Origin: Streptomyces pristinaespiralis
GTDB lineage: Bacteria; Actinomycetota; Actinomycetes; Streptomycetales; Streptomycetaceae
Assembly: GCF_001278075.1 (NCBI RefSeq)
Contig: NZ_CP011340.1
Span: forward strand, 2,790,001 to 2,854,000
Direction of reading: 5' to 3'
Length of the DNA: 64,000 nt
Below the pieces are notes generated by a model, which was given only the letters and a program-made list of their open reading frames with translations, had not been told where the DNA came from and did no database searches. A program made the position numbers and the translations under genes. Below are positions 51,618 to 60,727 of this stretch, in pieces. The number at the start of each line of letters is the position of its first letter. Within the stretch, counting starts at the first letter, position 1.

Positions 51618-52050
51618 GGCTCCATCATGGCCCCTGCGGCCCGTCCGCGTGGCCGTTCCCGCGGAACGGAGCCCCGGGGAGCAGGACCGCCCGACCGGCT
51701 CGGGCGGCACCCGGCCCGGACGTCACAAGGCGCCGCCCACCCGTCCGCACCTGGCAGAAGGCCACCCTCACGAGTGACGCCGGCACCCCGGACACCGGCG
51801 TGCCGGCCTGCCGCCCGCGGTCACCGGGGAGCGCTATCAGGCCATTTGTCGCGCGGCGCCCCACGGCGGAGCCGTCGATGGCCTGCACCGGTTCACCGGG
51901 CCGCGTACTCATCCGGCCAACACGCCATCGCGTGCGCCCCTGTGCTCCCGAATGCCCCGTTCCCCGAACCATCGCGGGGGCACTCAGAGGAGGGGCGGAT
52001 CACGAGCGTCACGCCGGACAGGCGTGGCGGGCATACCCAAGGGGTGGGAA
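51618..52050. other. Divergent intergenic region upstream of ramR
   Basis: This 433-base gap contains inverted repeats at 51653-51667 (CGTTCC with GGAACG) and 51779-51807 (GCCGGCAC with GTGCCGGC). The promoters of ramR and the anti-sigma-like gene should be here, but I see no unambiguous -10/-35 pair. No credible gene is present. Confidence 0.45.
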
Positions 52051-52638
52051 ATGATACGGGTGACCGTGGTGTACGAGGCCGGGCTGCTGCGGGCGGCGCT
52101 CGAGGAACTGCTGCGCTGCGGTGGTGATTTCGATGTCTCCTCCGCCTCGCACTGGCCGCAGAGACCGATCCCCGGCGCTTCGGTGCCGGACGTGTACGTC
52201 GTCGACGCCGAGTGCCTGGAGCCGGCCCGGGCGGCCGACAGGACGGCGACCGGAAGGGGCGCGCTCGTGGCGCTCGTCCCGGCGCAGCGACCAGGGGTGC
52301 TGCGAAGGGCCCATCAGGCCGGTGCCCTCGGGTTCGTCGACAAGGACGGCTCCAAGAGCCGATTACTCACAGCGGTGCGCCGCGCCGCGAAGGGGGACCG
52401 CTTCGTGGACGAGGCACTCGCGGCCGGATTCCTGGCGGCGGCGGAGATGCCCCTGACGCAGAGAGAGTTGAGCGTTCTGGCGCTGGCCGCCAAGGGAGAG
52501 CCGATCGCGGACGTCGCGGCGTCGTTGCACCTGTCGGAGGGGACGGTCCGCAACTACATGGCGAGCGTCATCCGCAAGGTGGGGGCCCGCAACCGGGTGG
52601 ACGCGATCCGCATCGCACAGGGAGCCGGCTGGACCTGA
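52051..52638 (+). CDS. ramR: RamR-type orphan response regulator of the SapB locus
   Basis: The 195-residue protein begins MIRVTVVYEAGLLRAALEEL with AAGGGGTGGG upstream. The receiver domain is atypical: the usual N-terminal acidic pair is Tyr-Glu (VVYEAG), though an Asp remains in VYVVDAECLEP. The C-terminal LuxR helix-turn-helix covers about 135-190 (LTQRELSVLALAAKGEPIAD, LSEGTVRNYMASVIRKVG). RamR is the known transcriptional activator of the ram operon. Codon 105 (52363-52365) is TTA, the codon read by the bldA tRNA. The gene is convergent with ramB. Confidence 0.88.
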   Translation: MIRVTVVYEAGLLRAALEELLRCGGDFDVSSASHWPQRPIPGASVPDVYVVDAECLEPARAADRTATGRGALVALVPAQRPGVLRRAHQAGALGFVDKDGSKSRLLTAVRRAAKGDRFVDEALAAGFLAAAEMPLTQRELSVLALAAKGEPIADVAASLHLSEGTVRNYMASVIRKVGARNRVDAIRIAQGAGWT

Positions 52639-52652
52639 TCCGGGTCGGCAAA

Positions 52653-52698
52653 CCGGCCGGTCCGGCACGCGGACGGACCGCGGCCGCCGACCGGCCGG
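52653..52698. terminator. Hairpin between converging ramR and ramB
   Basis: CCGGCCGGT (52653-52661) pairs with ACCGGCCGG (52690-52698) over a 28-base loop that can pair further inside. It lies between the ramR stop and the ramB stop and could end both transcripts. Confidence 0.45.
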
Positions 52699-52699
52699 A

Positions 52700-54475
52700 T
52701 CAGCCGCCGGTGCCGTGCCAGTGCCCGACCAGGTCCCGGTACAGCGCGGAACGCACGAGCAGTTCCTCGTGCGTTCCGCACGAGGCGCGCGTGCCGTCGA
52801 GGACGAGGACGCGGTCCGCCCGGAGCGCCGACGACAGCCGGTGGGCCACCACCACCAGGGTCCCGGGCCGGGCGGCGAGAGCACGCTCCGCCACCGCCTC
52901 CGTCGAGGGATCGAGGTGGGACGTCGCCTCGTCGAGCAGCAGCACGGGCGCCGGGGACAGGTGGGCACGGCCCAGGGCGATCAGCTGCCGCTCGCCCAGG
53001 GAGAGCGTCCGCGGCGTCAGTGTCGCGTCCAGACCGCCGACCCTGGCCACGAGCGGCTCCAGCCGCAGCGCCCGCACGGCCTCCTCCACGGCGGCTCGCG
53101 GAGCCTGCGGGCACAGGTAGCACAAGTTGTCCCGGAGCGTGCCGGTGAACACGTACGCGTCCTGCGGGAGAAGGGCGCGCAGGCACGTCGGATCCGTGGA
53201 CGACGCCGGCGCCACTGAACGGCCGGCCAGCCGCACCGCCCCCTCGGACGGCGCCAGCGTGCCGGCCACCACCTGGAGAAGTGTCGACTTGCCGATGCCG
53301 CTCGGCCCGACCACCGCGAGGTGCTCCCCCTCGGCGACGGTCAGGTCCAGCCCGTCCAGGACGGGACGGGCACGCGACCCGAAGGAGACCCGGACGCCCC
53401 GCAGTTCCACCGCCGCCCCACCGGTCCTGGGGCCGGGCCCGGAGCCTGCGGCGGGAGGGGGGACGGCCGTGTCCGGGTACGGCTCGGTGAGCCGGCCCAG
53501 GACCACGAGCAGCCGGGCGCCCGCGGCGCCCAGCACCGTCATCAGCGAATGCAGGGCGGGAAGCAGGGCCTGGAGCAGATAGGTCAGGGCACCCGCCAGC
53601 GCTCCCGCCGTGACCCCCTGTCCCAGCAGCCACGGCGTACAGACCAGGAGGAGGAGGACCGGCAGCTGGCCGGCCACGGCCACGGCGAGCGTGCGCACGG
53701 CCGCCCAGCGGGCCATCGACCGGGCCGCGGCGGCGGCCTCGCCGACATCGAGCCGCCCCTGTGCCTCCGCCGCGTCCTGCGTGCCGCAGGCGACGATGTC
53801 GCGCAGGGCCGTCGTGACGTTCTGCGCGTGCCTGCCGATCGCCTCGTCCGCGTCGAGGTAACGGTGCTGGGCGCGGGCCATCGGCAGCAGCGACGCCATG
53901 AAGAGCGTGACCCCCAGCAGCAGCGGCGGCAGGACGATCAGCAGGAACTGCGGTGCCAGCGACAGCAGACCGACCGCGGCCCCGGCGGCGACGAAGACGA
54001 AGGAGCGCGCGGTGAGCACCAGTCCCGCGAAGCTGTCGCGGGCGATCTCCGTCTGGCTGGTCAGCCGGGAGACGGCCGTGCCGTCGACCGAGCCGCCGAG
54101 GGCGGTGGCCTTGCGCAGCGCGTGCGTCACCGCTCGGCGGACCAGGGCGTCGCGCAGCGGCTCCGTCAGGTCGGCGAGCAGGGCGAAGACACCGCGGGTG
54201 ACGGGGGTACTCAGCACAATCACCCCGGCCGCCAGCGCCAGCCAGAGCAGACCCGTCACGGTGTCCGCCCGGAGGAACCCGTCGTCGAGCGCTCTGGCGA
54301 CCCCGTAACCACCGAGGAACGTCTGCACGGACTCGGCGGCGGACAGGGCCACGAGCCCGAACAGGGTCCGCTTCCTGCCCAGGAGGAAACGCCGCGCCGG
54401 TGCCGCCAGCCGGCGGGCGGCCGCCCGGTCCGTGAGGGCGGGGCCGTGAGCGGGCCGGTCGGCGGGCCGGCTCAT
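52700..54475 (-). CDS. ramB: ABC transporter, RamB-type half (SapB export)
   Basis: The 591-residue half-transporter starts at ATG (reading [18 protein letters not shown]), overlapping the ramA stop as ATGA. An open frame continues further upstream but overlaps ramA in another register. Six membrane segments cover about 30-290. The nucleotide-binding domain has canonical Walker [17 protein letters not shown] (about 387), signature [15 protein letters not shown] and Walker [14 protein letters not shown], with Lys and Glu intact. With RamA it should export the mature peptide. Confidence 0.9.
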
Positions 54476-56811
54476 CGCCCCCTCCCCCGGCCGCGGCGTG
54501 CGACCACGGCGGCGGGCGGCCACCCGGCCCGCCGTGGCGGTACCGCCCCCGGCGTGCGTGACGGGTCCTGCGCAGGCACGCGGTCGGGCGGGTCCGACGA
54601 GTCCGGCGGGTCGGGCGGGTCCGAGGGGTCCGACAGGTCCGACGGGTCCGACGAGTCCGACGAGTCCGACGGGTCCGACGGGTTCGACGGGTCCGAGGGG
54701 TCCGGCGCAGGTACGGGACCCGCCACGGGCGGCGCAGCCGGCGCCGGCACGCGGTCCGACGGGTCCGACGGGTCCGACGGGTTCGAGGGGTCCGGCGGAG
54801 GCACGGGACCCGCCACGGGCGGCGCAGCCGGCGCCGGCACGCGGTCCGACGGATCCGACGGGGCCGGCGAGTCCGGCGGGTCCGAGGGGTCCGAGGGGTC
54901 CGGCGCAGGTACGGGACCCGCCGCGGGCGGCGCAGCCGGCGCCGGCACGGGGTCCCCGGAGGTCGGCGGGGACGGGGTGGCCGGTTGTGCCGGCACCGGC
55001 TCGGGGACGAACACCGCACGGTAGTCCGGGTCCCGCCACAGCTCGCCGTGCGGCGCGACGCGCCGGACGCGGCCCGCCTCCAGCCAGATCACCAGGTCGG
55101 CCCGGGCGGCGGTGGACACCCGGTGCGCGACGACCAGCCGCGTACCGGTGAACGAGGCACCCGACAACGCGAGTTCCACCTGCCGTTCCGTGGCCGTGTC
55201 GAGGCTCGAGGTCGCGTCGTCCAGGATCGTCAGCCGCCCTCGGCGTACGAAGGCCCTGGCCAGGCCGAGGCGTTGCCGCTCGCCCCCGGACAACGGCGCC
55301 TGGTCCAGCGGTGTCCCGTACCCGTGGGGCAGCAGGCGTACGAAGTCGTCGGCGTGCGCGAGGACCGCGGCGTGCCGGACCCGGTCCCCGCTCGCGTCCA
55401 CGGCTCCGGCCGCCACGGCCTCGGCCACCGTGCCGCCGTGGAACTCCGGTCGCGCGAAGGCGTAGGCGACGCGGGCGCGCAGGTCACCCCGCTCCACCTG
55501 GGCCAGCGGCGTGCCGTCGAGGAGCACCCGTCCCTCGTCCGGGTCCTCGAGCCGGCCGGCGACGGCGGCGAGGCTGGACCTGCCGGAGCCGGACCGGCCC
55601 ACCACGGCGGCCGTCGCGCCTCCGGGCACCTTCAGCGTCACGTCCGTGAGCAGCGGCACCCCGCCGCGCACCAGACCGACGCCGCTGAGTTCCAGGGTGC
55701 CGTTTCCGTCCTCCGGCAGGGCCGCGCAGCCGTGGGGCATCGGCTCGAGGTCCGCGAGCTCAGCCGTGCGACGGGCCGCGCTGCGGGCCCGCACGAGCGC
55801 GCCGAGCGGGGAGGCGACGCCGCCGACGCCCGCTGCGAGCGCCGCGTAGCGCGAGGCTGCCAGCAGGTCCCCCACGCTCAGGGCGCCTTGGGAGACGCGG
55901 ACACCGCCCACGGCGAGGACGGCGGTGACGAGCAGCGGCAGGAGCACGCCGCTGTGCGCCACGGCGCGGCCGTGGACGGTCCACATGCGCCGTCCGTGCA
56001 GAGCGAGTTCGTCGAGCGGGGCGAGGACGCGCCGCGCCTCGCGTCCGAGGGTGCCCGCCGCGGCAACCGTACGGGCGCCCTCCAGCGCCTCGGCCAGCCG
56101 GGCCGCGATGTCGGCCTGCACCCGCTGGTAGCGGCCGACGCTGTCGGACGAATGACGGGCGAAGGCGCGCAGCAGCAGAAGCAGCAGCGGAACACCGGCC
56201 AGGAATACGGCGGCGGTCCACGGATCGATGAGCGCGAGTGCCACGAGGGCGCCCACGGGGGCGAGCAGCGAGGAGACGATGGTGGCGAGCGCCGCGGGCG
56301 CGGCGCCACTGTCCGCGGCGTTCACACACAGCCGGGCGGCGACGTCACCGGGAGAGTACGGCGCCGCATGCGAGAGCGGACTGCCGAGCAGCCCCTTCAA
56401 CGCCCGGATGCGTACCCAGGCGGTGGCGCGGGCACCGGCCAGTTGGCTCAGCAGGACGCGTGCGGCCTCCAGGATGACCTCACCCGCCAGCAGCACGGCG
56501 CTCAGCGCGAGCCATGGTCCCGCCCCTGTGCGTCGGTCCAGCATCAGGTCGAGCGCGTGCCCGATGACGGCGGGGACCGCGAGCGCGCACCCGGCGGCGG
56601 CGGTCGAACAGAGGCCGAGAACGGCAGCGATGAACCAGGTGCGCCGTACCGTGCCGCGCAGGAGTGCGTCTCCTCCGCCCACCGGCGGCGTACGGCCCTT
56701 CTCCGGCCGCTCCTCGCCACGGGTGTTCACCGCCGACCGCTCCCGGTCGCGCGGTTCCTCGTCGCGCCGTCGCCTGCCCCGTGGCCGCTCTGCCCGTTCC
56801 AGCCTCGTCAC
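54472..56811 (-). CDS. ramA: ABC transporter, RamA-type half with degenerate ATP site and repetitive tail
   Basis: The 779-residue protein starts at GTG (reading [20 protein letters not shown]); an internal start is possible, since the first 45 residues are charged and disordered. Membrane segments occupy about 55-330. The ATPase domain has Walker [12 protein letters not shown], in which Lys is replaced by Arg, and Walker [11 protein letters not shown], in which the catalytic Glu is Asp. The signature is [15 protein letters not shown]. After about residue 607 comes a tail built from repeats of DPSDPSDP and [15 protein letters not shown]. The ATGA overlap with ramB supports the frame to the end. 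Confidence 0.85.
54498..54960. repeat. In-frame minisatellite encoding the RamA tail
   Basis: Runs close to GTCCGACGG (nine bases, three codons, DPS on the minus strand) are interrupted by three copies of a longer block starting near 54701, 54791 and 54899 (90 and 108 bases apart, both multiples of nine). The period keeps the ramA frame. Expansion by slippage is likely. Confidence 0.8.
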
Positions 56812-56920
56812 CCCTCTCGGTCACCCGCCCGCGGCGCTCCTGCCCGCAGGACCCGGGGACCGCTCCGGGGGCCCGGCGGGCCGGAACCGTCCGCCCTGGG
56901 CCCCGCGTTCCGGACGCCGC

Positions 56921-56951
56921 GGCGCCCCCGGAGACGTGCTCCGGGGGCGCC
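56921..56951 (-). terminator. Hairpin between ramS and ramA
   Basis: A 13-bp perfect stem (GGCGCCCCCGGAG at 56921-56933 with 56939-56951) with a five-base loop lies 43 bases past the ramS stop and 109 bases before ramA. It probably limits read-through, favouring precursor peptide over transporter. Confidence 0.7.
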
Positions 56952-56994
56952 GGGACTCCGCAGCGACTGCCGCCGCTCGCGGAGCCGCGCCGGA

Positions 56995-57123
56995 TCAGTT
57001 GCAGGTGGTCACGCTGAGGCTGCTGTCACCGCAGAGCAGCAGGCTGGCGCGGCTACCGGTCTCGACGTCGCCGATGGCCTCTTCCTTCGGGGTCTCCATC
57101 GACTGCAGGTCGAGCAGGGTCAT
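56995..57123 (-). CDS. ramS: SapB-type lanthipeptide precursor RamS
   Basis: The 42-residue precursor starts with AGAGG upstream (MTLLDLQSMETPKEEAIGDV). The leader has the LDLQ motif that class III synthetases recognise, and the core, about the last 21 residues, contains TGSRASLLLCGDSSLSVTT followed by Cys-Asn. Ser and Cys residues can form two labionin or lanthionine rings. As I recall SapB, this differs at one core residue (Val for Ile, position 17). The peptide is a surfactant needed for aerial growth on rich medium in S. coelicolor. It lies between ramC and ramA. Confidence 0.93.
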   Translation of the reverse strand: MTLLDLQSMETPKEEAIGDVETGSRASLLLCGDSSLSVTTCN

Positions 57124-57151
57124 GATCTTTTCCTCTCTGTCGGGGACGGTG

Positions 57152-59773
57152 CTACTGACGACCCCGTGACGGGGCCGGATCTTGGGGGTGCCGCAGCGGC
57201 GGCAGGAACGGCAGCTGCGCCGGGCGGTCGCCGAGCGCCGCCGCCAGCGCAAGCAGGCAGCCGGCCGTGCCGGTGGACAGGTCCATCGACAGCCGCATCA
57301 TCTGCTCACCGGGAAAGGCCAGTCGGCCTTTGTAGGACATGGCGTGCCAGGCAAGGGAGCGGACCTGGCGGCGGACGTCCTCCGCCGTGGTGCCGGGGCC
57401 GCCCGTGGTGGTACGCGCGAGGTGCAGGACCATGCCGGCGGCGCCGCGGAAGAGGCCGGGCTGTGCGTAGAACGTGGCCTGCGCGGCCCGTACGATCTCG
57501 CCTCGCGCCCGGTCGAAGGTCCCGTCGCGGCGGTGGGCCGCGTAGTCGTCGAGCACCATGCCGATGCCGGCGCTGCCCGCTCCCAGGTAGGGCATCGTGC
57601 GCCAGCCCTCGTCCACCTGAAGAGTGCCCCCGGCACCGTGCACGCACCGGGACAGGTCGTCGCTCAGCGCCTCGGCCGCGAGGTCGAGCAGCGCGGTGTC
57701 CCCGGTGCGCTCGTAACGGCGCACGAAGAACAGCGCGCGGCCCGCGGACCCGTGCAGCAGCCCGGTGCGCCGTGTGCTCCGCCCGGTCCCGGCGCGGGCC
57801 GGGACGGGGCGGGCAGTCAGTTCCGCGCAGCGGGAGGCGGCGTCGTGCAGGGCCGCCTCCCCGGTGGCGGCGGCGAGGGCGTCGAGGGCGAGGCCGATCC
57901 CGGCCGTGCCGCTGTGCAGGTCGGGTGAGAGCGCCGACCAGTCCTCTTCGAGGATCCGTCCGGCCAGTTCCAGGGCAGGGCCGGGGTGTCCGAGCCGGTG
58001 AAGGGTCCAGGCGATGCCGGCGAGGCCGTCGTAGAACCCGAGCGGAGTGCCCGATTCGGGTGCCTTGGCGTGGCGCAGCAGCCATTCCTCGGCGCCGGGG
58101 CAGGACGGGGAGCCGCTCTCGCCGAGCGCGTGGAGCACTCCGGCGGTGCCGTAGCCGAAGGACGCTCCACCGCCCGCGGTCGCGAACTGGGCGATGTCGC
58201 CCGGGAAGTACCGGTCCTCGCGCTCCGGGGTCGCGGACGCCGCGATCGCCTTGGCCATCGAGTCGCGGCTGCGCGGCCAGTCGTCCGGATCCACCGGAAG
58301 GAACCGGCCGGGTCCTCGCGCCGGTGCGTGGAGCGGGCCGCCGGCCGGGTCGCGCCCGATCTCCCGTACGGCCGCGTCGAGGAACTCACGGGGCACCGGG
58401 AAGTGCGCTGCCGCGAGGTCGGCCAGGTGCGCCGCCTTGTCCCGGTCGACGGCGAACAGGCTGGTGAGCGGCAGGAACAGGGCGATCCGCAGGCAGGCCA
58501 GCGCGTAGCGGTCGACATCGATGCCGCGCCGGTCGGCGGGTGCGACGAACGCCGGGTGGGCGACGATCTGCCGGCCGCGCTCCTCCACGGGGCGTGCCGC
58601 TTCGAAGTCCAGGAGTACGACGGACTCCTCGTCCTCGGCGACCATGATGTTGAACAGGTGCAGGTCGTTGAAGACCACTCCGCGCGCGTGGACGTCGGCC
58701 ACGGCCTGTTCGACCAGGCCGTGCATCCGCATCGCCCACCGCGTGTACTCCTCCAGCCGCTCGGGCGTCGGATCCGCGTCGATCAGCGGGTGCCGGCGGG
58801 CGAAGAAGGAGTTGAGCGGCTTGCCCGCCACATGTTCCAGTGCGAGGAAGTGGTGCTCGCCCAGCACGAAGCTGTCCACGACCTCCGGGGTGCAGGCGAG
58901 CCCCGTCAGCTGCCGCAGCGCCCGGTGTTCCCGGTCCAGGCGGGTCACCGCGTCGGCGCCGTCGGCGGCGAGGCCGGCGTGCGGGCGGGCCTCCTTGAGC
59001 ACGACCCGGGCGCCGGTGGCCTTGTGGTGGGCCTCGTAGACACCGCCGCCGTTGGAGAAGTGCAGCGCCTTGTCGACGGTGTACGGCAGATCCGTGACGG
59101 CCACCGCGCCGCGGGCCTCGAGATGGGGCCGCAGATAGTCGGGCGGGGTGATCCACTCGGGTATCCGGAACACGGGCTCGCGCCGGTCGGGCACCAGTAC
59201 GCCGGCACCGTTCTCGATCGCGGGGCGCAGCTCGCCCTGCTCGTCGTAGCAGTGGCGGCGGGTGAAGCTTCCGTAGCGCAGGTGCACCGGCCCCGCGCCC
59301 CAGCGCAGATCGCTGAGGATGTACGGGCCGGGCTCGCCGTCGAGCAGCGCGGCGAGGTCGCCCGCGATCCGTCCGCACCGGGTCTCGTCCGCCGGGTAGA
59401 CCGTGATGAACTTGCCGCTCGAGGCGCGGTCGGCGTACTTGGCGTTGCGCTGATGCAGCAGGTAGCGGCTCGGGACGAACTTGAACGCGACCTCGTGCGC
59501 CAGGCAGTACGTCCGGACCTTGGCGAGCACCGACTCCGCGTTGCCGAGAGAGGCGGAGACGTGGATCTTCCAGCCCTGGGACGGCAGCTCCCGGTCCACC
59601 GGCCGCAGGGCGAGCCAGTCGCCCGTGCGGTGGCTGAGCCAGCCCTCGGGGACCGGCAGCCGCGCCGCCTCGTACAGGGAGCCGTCAGCGGTCTCCTCTG
59701 CGAACGCCAGGCGGTGCGGCGCGTCGTAGAAGTGCCGGTCGGCGTCGCAGAAGACCGCGTACCCCTTGTTCAC
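57152..59773 (-). CDS. ramC: Class III lanthipeptide synthetase RamC (LanKC)
   Basis: The 873-residue enzyme starts at GTG (reading NKGYAVFCDADRHFYDAPHR), with GGGAG upstream; a longer frame adds 13 residues. It has an N-terminal lyase-like part (about 1-220), a kinase domain (about 225-500; VVFNDLHLFNIMVAEDEE and LLDFEAARPVEE), and a C-terminal cyclase-like domain (about 530-870; LLHGSAGRALFF, PYLGAGSAGIGMVLDDY). The Cys-rich zinc site of LanC is missing, as in other RamC proteins. It phosphorylates, eliminates and cyclises RamS. It heads the operon. Confidence 0.95.
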   Translation of the reverse strand: MNKGYAVFCDADRHFYDAPHRLAFAEETADGSLYEAARLPVPEGWLSHRTGDWLALRPVDRELPSQGWKIHVSASLGNAESVLAKVRTYCLAHEVAFKFVPSRYLLHQRNAKYADRASSGKFITVYPADETRCGRIAGDLAALLDGEPGPYILSDLRWGAGPVHLRYGSFTRRHCYDEQGELRPAIENGAGVLVPDRREPVFRIPEWITPPDYLRPHLEARGAVAVTDLPYTVDKALHFSNGGGVYEAHHKATGARVVLKEARPHAGLAADGADAVTRLDREHRALRQLTGLACTPEVVDSFVLGEHHFLALEHVAGKPLNSFFARRHPLIDADPTPERLEEYTRWAMRMHGLVEQAVADVHARGVVFNDLHLFNIMVAEDEESVVLLDFEAARPVEERGRQIVAHPAFVAPADRRGIDVDRYALACLRIALFLPLTSLFAVDRDKAAHLADLAAAHFPVPREFLDAAVREIGRDPAGGPLHAPARGPGRFLPVDPDDWPRSRDSMAKAIAASATPEREDRYFPGDIAQFATAGGGASFGYGTAGVLHALGESGSPSCPGAEEWLLRHAKAPESGTPLGFYDGLAGIAWTLHRLGHPGPALELAGRILEEDWSALSPDLHSGTAGIGLALDALAAATGEAALHDAASRCAELTARPVPARAGTGRSTRRTGLLHGSAGRALFFVRRYERTGDTALLDLAAEALSDDLSRCVHGAGGTLQVDEGWRTMPYLGAGSAGIGMVLDDYAAHRRDGTFDRARGEIVRAAQATFYAQPGLFRGAAGMVLHLARTTTGGPGTTAEDVRRQVRSLAWHAMSYKGRLAFPGEQMMRLSMDLSTGTAGCLLALAAALGDRPAQLPFLPPLRHPQDPAPSRGRQ

Positions 59774-59790
59774 GCGCACTCCCTCGGTCG

Positions 59791-59847
59791 GTGACAGGAG
59801 TGACGTTGTCACGCGCGGCCAGGCGCCCGACAGTCACCGCTGTCACC
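59791..59847 (-). promoter_or_regulatory. Cluster of GTGAC/GTCAC motifs upstream of ramC, candidate regulator sites
   Basis: GTGAC occurs at 59791 and 59800, GTCAC at 59808, 59833 and 59842. The two GTGAC are nine bases apart, and so are the last two GTCAC; 59800-59812 is a palindrome (GTGACGTTGTCAC). This arrangement in front of the ram operon suggests paired binding sites, perhaps for RamR. Binding is not shown. Confidence 0.45.
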
Positions 59848-59959
59848 TTCCGAACGTGCGGTACGCACAGGTAACCAGGGCGGGATGCGGCAGCCGGCCC
59901 CGCGAACAGGCCCGCGGCCCGCGGCAGGGCCGGGGCCGGGATCAGGACCGGCAGAGCGG

Positions 59960-60727
59960 TCAGAGGAACTTGGCCTTGCCCGGGCCTTCCTCGACGAAGC
60001 TGCGCATGCCGCGTTCCCGGTCCTCCGTGGCGAACAGGCCCGCGAACCAGTTGCGTTCGACGGCGAGTCCGGTCTCGATGTCCGTCTCGAGCCCGGCGTC
60101 CACCGACTCCTTCGCCGCGCGCAGCGCCAGCGCGGGCCCCTTGGCCAGGGCCGCGGCCCAGGCGTGCGCCTGCTCGTACACCTCGGCTGCGGGGACGACA
60201 CGGTCCACGAGGCCGAGGGAGAGCGCCTCTTCCGCCTTGACCATCCGGCCGGTGAAGATCAGGTCCTTGGCGCGGGAGGGGCCGATCAGCCGGGACAGCC
60301 GCTGGGTGCCGCCCGCGCCCGGGATCAGGCCCAGCAGGATCTCCGGCTGGCCGAGCTTGGCGTTGTCGGCGGCGATCCGGTAGTCGGCGCAGAGCGCGAG
60401 CTCGCAGCCGCCGCCGAGGGCGTAGCCGGTGACGGCCGCGACGACGGGCTTGGGGATACGGGCCACGGCGGTGAAGGACTCCTGCAGGGCCCGGGAGCGC
60501 ACGACCATCGCCGCGTGGTCCATGGCCTGCATCTCCTTGATGTCCGCGCCCGCCGCGAACACCTTCTCGCCGCCGTAGAGGATCACCGCCCGCACGTCGT
60601 CGCGGCGGCCGGCCTCCTCCGCGAGCTCGCGCAGCCGGTCCTGGACGGCGATGTCGAGGGCGTTCATCGGGGGGCGGTCGAGCCTGATGGTGCCGACGCC
60701 TTCGGAGACTTCGAGTGAAACGGTCAT
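59960..60727 (-). CDS. Enoyl-CoA hydratase/isomerase family protein
   Basis: The 255-residue crotonase-fold protein starts MTVSLEVSEGVGTIRLDRPP. Oxyanion-hole motifs are AAGADIKEMQAMD and GYALGGGCELALCADYRI; the acid region includes LGLIPGAGGTQRL. It hydrates or isomerises an unsaturated acyl-CoA, probably in fatty-acid oxidation. Nothing links it to the ram genes next door beyond position. It lies about 186 bases beyond ramC's start. Confidence 0.9.
   Translation of the reverse strand: MTVSLEVSEGVGTIRLDRPPMNALDIAVQDRLRELAEEAGRRDDVRAVILYGGEKVFAAGADIKEMQAMDHAAMVVRSRALQESFTAVARIPKPVVAAVTGYALGGGCELALCADYRIAADNAKLGQPEILLGLIPGAGGTQRLSRLIGPSRAKDLIFTGRMVKAEEALSLGLVDRVVPAAEVYEQAHAWAAALAKGPALALRAAKESVDAGLETDIETGLAVERNWFAGLFATEDRERGMRSFVEEGPGKAKFL

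Follow-up and report, generated by a model that had tools for sequence, protein, structure and literature searches.

SapB is a small surface-active peptide that aids Streptomyces in raising aerial threads. The window analysed here (the whole stretch of DNA examined, 64,000 nucleotides of the Streptomyces pristinaespiralis chromosome) contains the genes for a peptide of this type, with ramCSAB spanning 52700-59773 on the minus strand and ramR facing it (Table 1). Each of the five reading frames is uninterrupted, and ramB begins with an ATG that shares bases with the stop codon of ramA (ATGA). A preliminary description had reported a complete ramC/ramS/ramA/ramB minus-strand unit with convergent ramR, which the coordinates, open frames and family matches bear out; its assignment of the locus to the SapB-type class III group with canonical gene order is supported by strong family matches and by the relatives described below.

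Table 1. Genes and other features of the ram locus (window positions).
Feature	Position	Strand	Description	Basis
ramR	52051..52638	+	195-aa LuxR/GerE-type activator, convergent to ramCSAB	GerE/LuxR domain, 3.1e-16 (Pfam)
ramB	52700..54475	-	ABC transporter, 591 aa	
ramA	54472..56811	-	ABC transporter, 779 aa as called; long low-complexity C-terminal tail	
Tandem-repeat array in RamA tail codons	54589..54955	-	Pro/Ser/Asp-rich	TRF
GC-rich hairpin in ramS-ramA gap	56920..56952	-	14-bp stem	fold of 105-nt region
ramS	56995..57123	-	SapB-type precursor, 42 aa, core TGSRASLLLCGDSSLSVTTCN	
ramC	57152..59773	-	class III lanthionine synthetase LanKC, 873 aa; GTG start	
ramC upstream region	59774..59885	-	blocks common to relatives	alignment

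Gene families, genome context and gene order

The full RamS sequence, MTLLDLQSMETPKEEAIGDVETGSRASLLLCGDSSLSVTTCN, matches both PF19402 (2.3e-18; 66.8 bits, cut-off 24.3) and the SapB_AmfS_lanti model NF033212 (1e-19; 70.3 bits, cut-off 25). Two SxxSxxxC motifs can be read directly from its core, and the core letters and LDLQ leader motif given in the preliminary description are both as stated there. RamC scores 1141.9 bits against the lanthi_synth_III model NF038151 (cut-off 575) and 387.7 bits against the class IV LanL model NF038150, below the cut-off of 650. RamC_N (3.1e-78), Pkinase and LANC_like all exceed their Pfam cut-offs in this protein, and relaxing the Pfam threshold for RamC to E <= 1 brought in nothing beyond weak kinase-like matches. 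The solved domain 7wj6, deposited as a serine/threonine protein kinase and which we take to be a LanKC kinase domain, aligns with RamC residues 227-496 (7.8e-97), the lysine, NDLH..N and DFE segments of RamC being matched in the alignment; full-length LanKC entries match as well (for example 8sao, 2.3e-71).

RamA and RamB both match ABC transporters in Pfam/NCBIfam profile searches, so that the locus holds the two ABC exporters and the convergent LuxR-type regulator by which a SapB/AmfS locus is recognised. A receiver domain in RamR was matched by no Pfam model at E <= 0.001, and the response-regulator models of NCBIfam score under their cut-offs.

The host genome is a single contig of 8,532,592 bases with one RamS match and eight chaplin-domain matches; the latter are absent from 14 control genomes. 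The LanKC model, which also matches in 12 of the 14 control genomes (above cut-off in one), has 39 matches in the host genome, one of them above cut-off; the other 38 are partial, lie in the kinase part and score below cut-off, and a second class III system was rejected on this ground. With up to 18 candidates scored per genome, 205 of 392 genomes of the genus proved to carry the RamS family, 204 of them above cut-off, against none of the 14 controls.

Gene order was compared in 80 named loci, the best 80 of 148 RamC relatives (72 Streptomyces, 7 Nocardiopsis, 1 Kitasatospora), each oriented by ramC. A ramA match is present in 78 and a ramB match in 77; the ramB match of L110 (34%) lies nearly all inside the ramA match and is not an independent ramB. 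In 68 of the 80, the best ramR match lies downstream of ramB on the opposite strand, hence convergent, and excerpts of PMC10090380 state that S. coelicolor ramR controls a convergently transcribed ramCSAB operon. This is the canonical arrangement. The 12 of these best 80 loci without a convergent ramR count against reading the window as an ordinary SapB locus. Eleven have no ramR match at E <= 1e-10, and the stretches of seven (L032, L046, L049, L053, L082, L108 and L110) end early; that of L053 stops ~650 bases past its ramB match, without a ramR match. Two other layouts were seen: in L034 (Streptomyces sp. YS415) the sole ramR match lies upstream of ramC and on its strand, and the other four of the eleven, the Nocardiopsis loci L058, L069, L071 and L078, are full-length stretches that carry ramC, ramS, ramA and ramB but lack any ramR match in the vicinity at that threshold.

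When the region upstream of ramC was aligned with 14 others, picked for closeness and spread, blocks such as GGTTACC and TGACAGCGG proved common to the relatives. To judge from these blocks, the region is likely to hold a candidate promoter and RamR site; a promoter/terminator scan yielded nothing of use.

The variant core position and the ring system

The published SapB core has Ile at a position where RamS of the window has Val, and the preliminary description had implied that this one-residue variant was new. Val is common at the variant position and is the commonest residue in every set examined: Val, Ile and Leu number 60, 15 and 5 in the 80 named loci (best 80 of 148 RamC relatives), 57, 51 and 12 in the 120 listed of 328 RamS protein homologues (cluster representatives), and 16, 12 and 2 among the best RamS matches (L001-L030, the window's own locus included), although these sets overlap and favour close relatives and so do not give genus-wide frequencies. 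All 21 residues of the core are matched exactly in 37 of the 80 named loci (best 80 of 148) and in L021, the nearest relative examined, and the same core ends 9 of the 120 listed homologues (of 328), against 2 of 120 for its Ile form; an Ile form is also found among relatives, one example being Streptomyces tendae JCM 4610 (L103). A novel core variant is rejected, Val being common among relatives, and Val should not be taken as the mark of a new SapB. A literature text search for the core strings returned no paper, a result that says little because figures lie outside such a search.

The change could in principle mark a functionally distinct morphogen: according to the available passages of PMC13380574, Thr in place of hydrophobic residues abolished the activity of durhapeptin, which is strain-selective. 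Val, Ile and Leu, however, are all found at the variant position in homologues and each is hydrophobic, and we consider a distinct function extremely improbable. Val for Ile is best regarded as a common natural variant, probably neutral in effect.

By analogy with the family, RamR would activate ramC, whose product would phosphorylate and then eliminate the core serines and form two thioether ring systems, with Cys10 and Cys20, from the SxxSxxxC motifs of RamS. The leader would be cut off by a protease encoded outside the locus, none of the five genes encoding one; RamA and RamB would export the hydrophobic peptide, which would lower surface tension and thereby allow aerial hyphae to rise. Homology makes it plausible that the peptide is produced and is surface-active.

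The locus is of the known SapB/AmfS family, and its product is expected to be one CH2 lighter than the Ile form (calculated neutral monoisotopic masses after four water losses, 2011.946 vs 2025.961). Two lanthionines plus two dehydroalanines are isobaric with two labionins, so the mass test proposed in the preliminary description cannot decide ring type; intact mass could confirm the presence of the product, but cannot alone assign its rings.

Either outcome is possible from each SxxSxxxC motif, and the same kind of locus might yield a peptide with two labionin (Lab) units instead of two lanthionines (Lan) and two dehydroalanines. The window's exact core is present in the S. rochei NRRL B-2410 locus (L068), a possible source of rochsin A, and the portions of PMC13380574 consulted attribute two Lab units to rochsin A of S. 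rochei and Lan, Lab or mixed products to synthetases grouping with RamC and AmfT. The same portions give two Lan units each for SapB and AmfS, and the window RamS is close to SapB-type precursors, which argues against the two-labionin product; we regard that product as unlikely and lanthionine as more likely than labionin. With a core identical to the window's in L068, it may be that this core can give labionin rings. A literature text search for rochsin found nothing beyond the durhapeptin paper (PMC13380574).

The RamA tail and the ramS-ramA hairpin

From about residue 605, RamA continues into a Pro/Ser/Asp-rich tail of ~174 residues encoded by the tandem array. In L127 (genome G173), the nearest relative examined, the tail is ~60 residues long and lacks the array, and blastn against this locus leaves 312 window bases (~54584-54895) unaligned. 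This estimate of the insertion was drawn from the blastn breakpoints and the translated tail because MAFFT gapped the two RamA tail regions badly. Across the 77 readable of the 80 named loci (best 80 of 148), RamA tails have a median of 25 residues and range from 4 to 701. Three of the named loci have tails longer than the window's: L051, where the length is due to repeats; L070; and L091, where the stretch contains unknown bases. In L070 (Streptomyces sp. I6), RamA and RamB form one continuous frame, possibly a natural fusion or a sequencing frameshift. Repeat-like RamA tails were also seen in L094, L096, L097 and L107.

The unusual length of the tail counts against the reading of an ordinary SapB locus, and it could reflect relaxed selection on a locus that is decayed or silent. 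The frames are, however, all open, which argues against decay; the blocks upstream of ramC are common to relatives; and L127 keeps 92% protein identity to the window in RamC, RamB and RamR and 90% over 606 aligned RamA residues. A decayed or silent locus is accordingly very unlikely.

The 105-nt region with the hairpin between ramS and ramA folds with a z-score of -3.76, and one of 200 shuffles folds equally well. Stretches of up to 110 nt after ramS, one from the window and 79 from the 80 named loci (L031-L110; best 80 of 148), were compared with G-U pairs allowed. A perfect stem of at least 10 pairs is present in 73 of these 80 sequences, the other 7 not reaching that length, and 61 of the 80 beat all 50 of their mononucleotide shuffles, counts that are not independent since the loci are related. 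Of the 70 named loci with both such a stem and a ramA match, 67 have the whole hairpin ahead of the ramA match, and in three (L031, L035, L095) the two overlap. In 18 picked sequences, two of the 12 consensus pairs show both-sided changes that preserve the pair and one is broken in two sequences; covariation contributes little to the folding energy (-0.63 of -30.13 kcal/mol). No Rfam family reached its gathering score over 51900-60200. The terminator scan does not report the hairpin, as its rule demands a T-run, and in a literature text search the term stem-loop at ramS/ramA was absent from the matching Streptomyces SapB papers.

We propose that the hairpin is an attenuator or a stabiliser of the mRNA end, which would keep precursor transcripts above exporter transcripts. 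The broader proposal, that this widely conserved element sets a high ratio of precursor to exporter in most SapB producers and that RamA in the present lineage has in addition acquired a repeat tail, probably disordered, through recent expansion, stands in our view at roughly even odds. The hairpin could then be a simple handle on the balance of peptide and transporter in the operon.

Relation to known SapB and AmfS loci

The analysis establishes which genes are present, how they are arranged, which families they belong to and what the core sequence is. We read the whole, with a probability of about 95%, as a SapB morphogen locus (ramCSAB-ramR) of a Streptomyces chromosome, complete and ordinary in its make-up. 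It is of an already known kind, the feature put forward as interesting is a natural variant that occurs commonly, and as a discovery it matters little.

S. coelicolor RamS, like that of the window, has two SxxSxxxC motifs and an LDLQ leader. In the excerpts of PMC10090380, the S. coelicolor ramCSAB-ramR locus agrees with the window in gene content, convergent ramR and a 42-aa RamS, whereas its RamA is 635 aa long, as against the 779 aa called here. The loci of S. rochei NRRL B-2410 (L068), S. aureus NRRL B-2808 (L032) and S. lateritius JCM 4389 (L037) encode a 21-residue core identical to the window's beside a RamC that is 69-76% identical, but their RamA tails have ~32-62 residues, compared with ~174 in the window. 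The core of Streptomyces griseus AmfS is more divergent from the window core; the family model NF033212, which covers AmfS by name, also matches the window RamS. The AmfS locus of S. griseus has, in the part of PMC13380574 available, the gene set amfTSAB-amfR.
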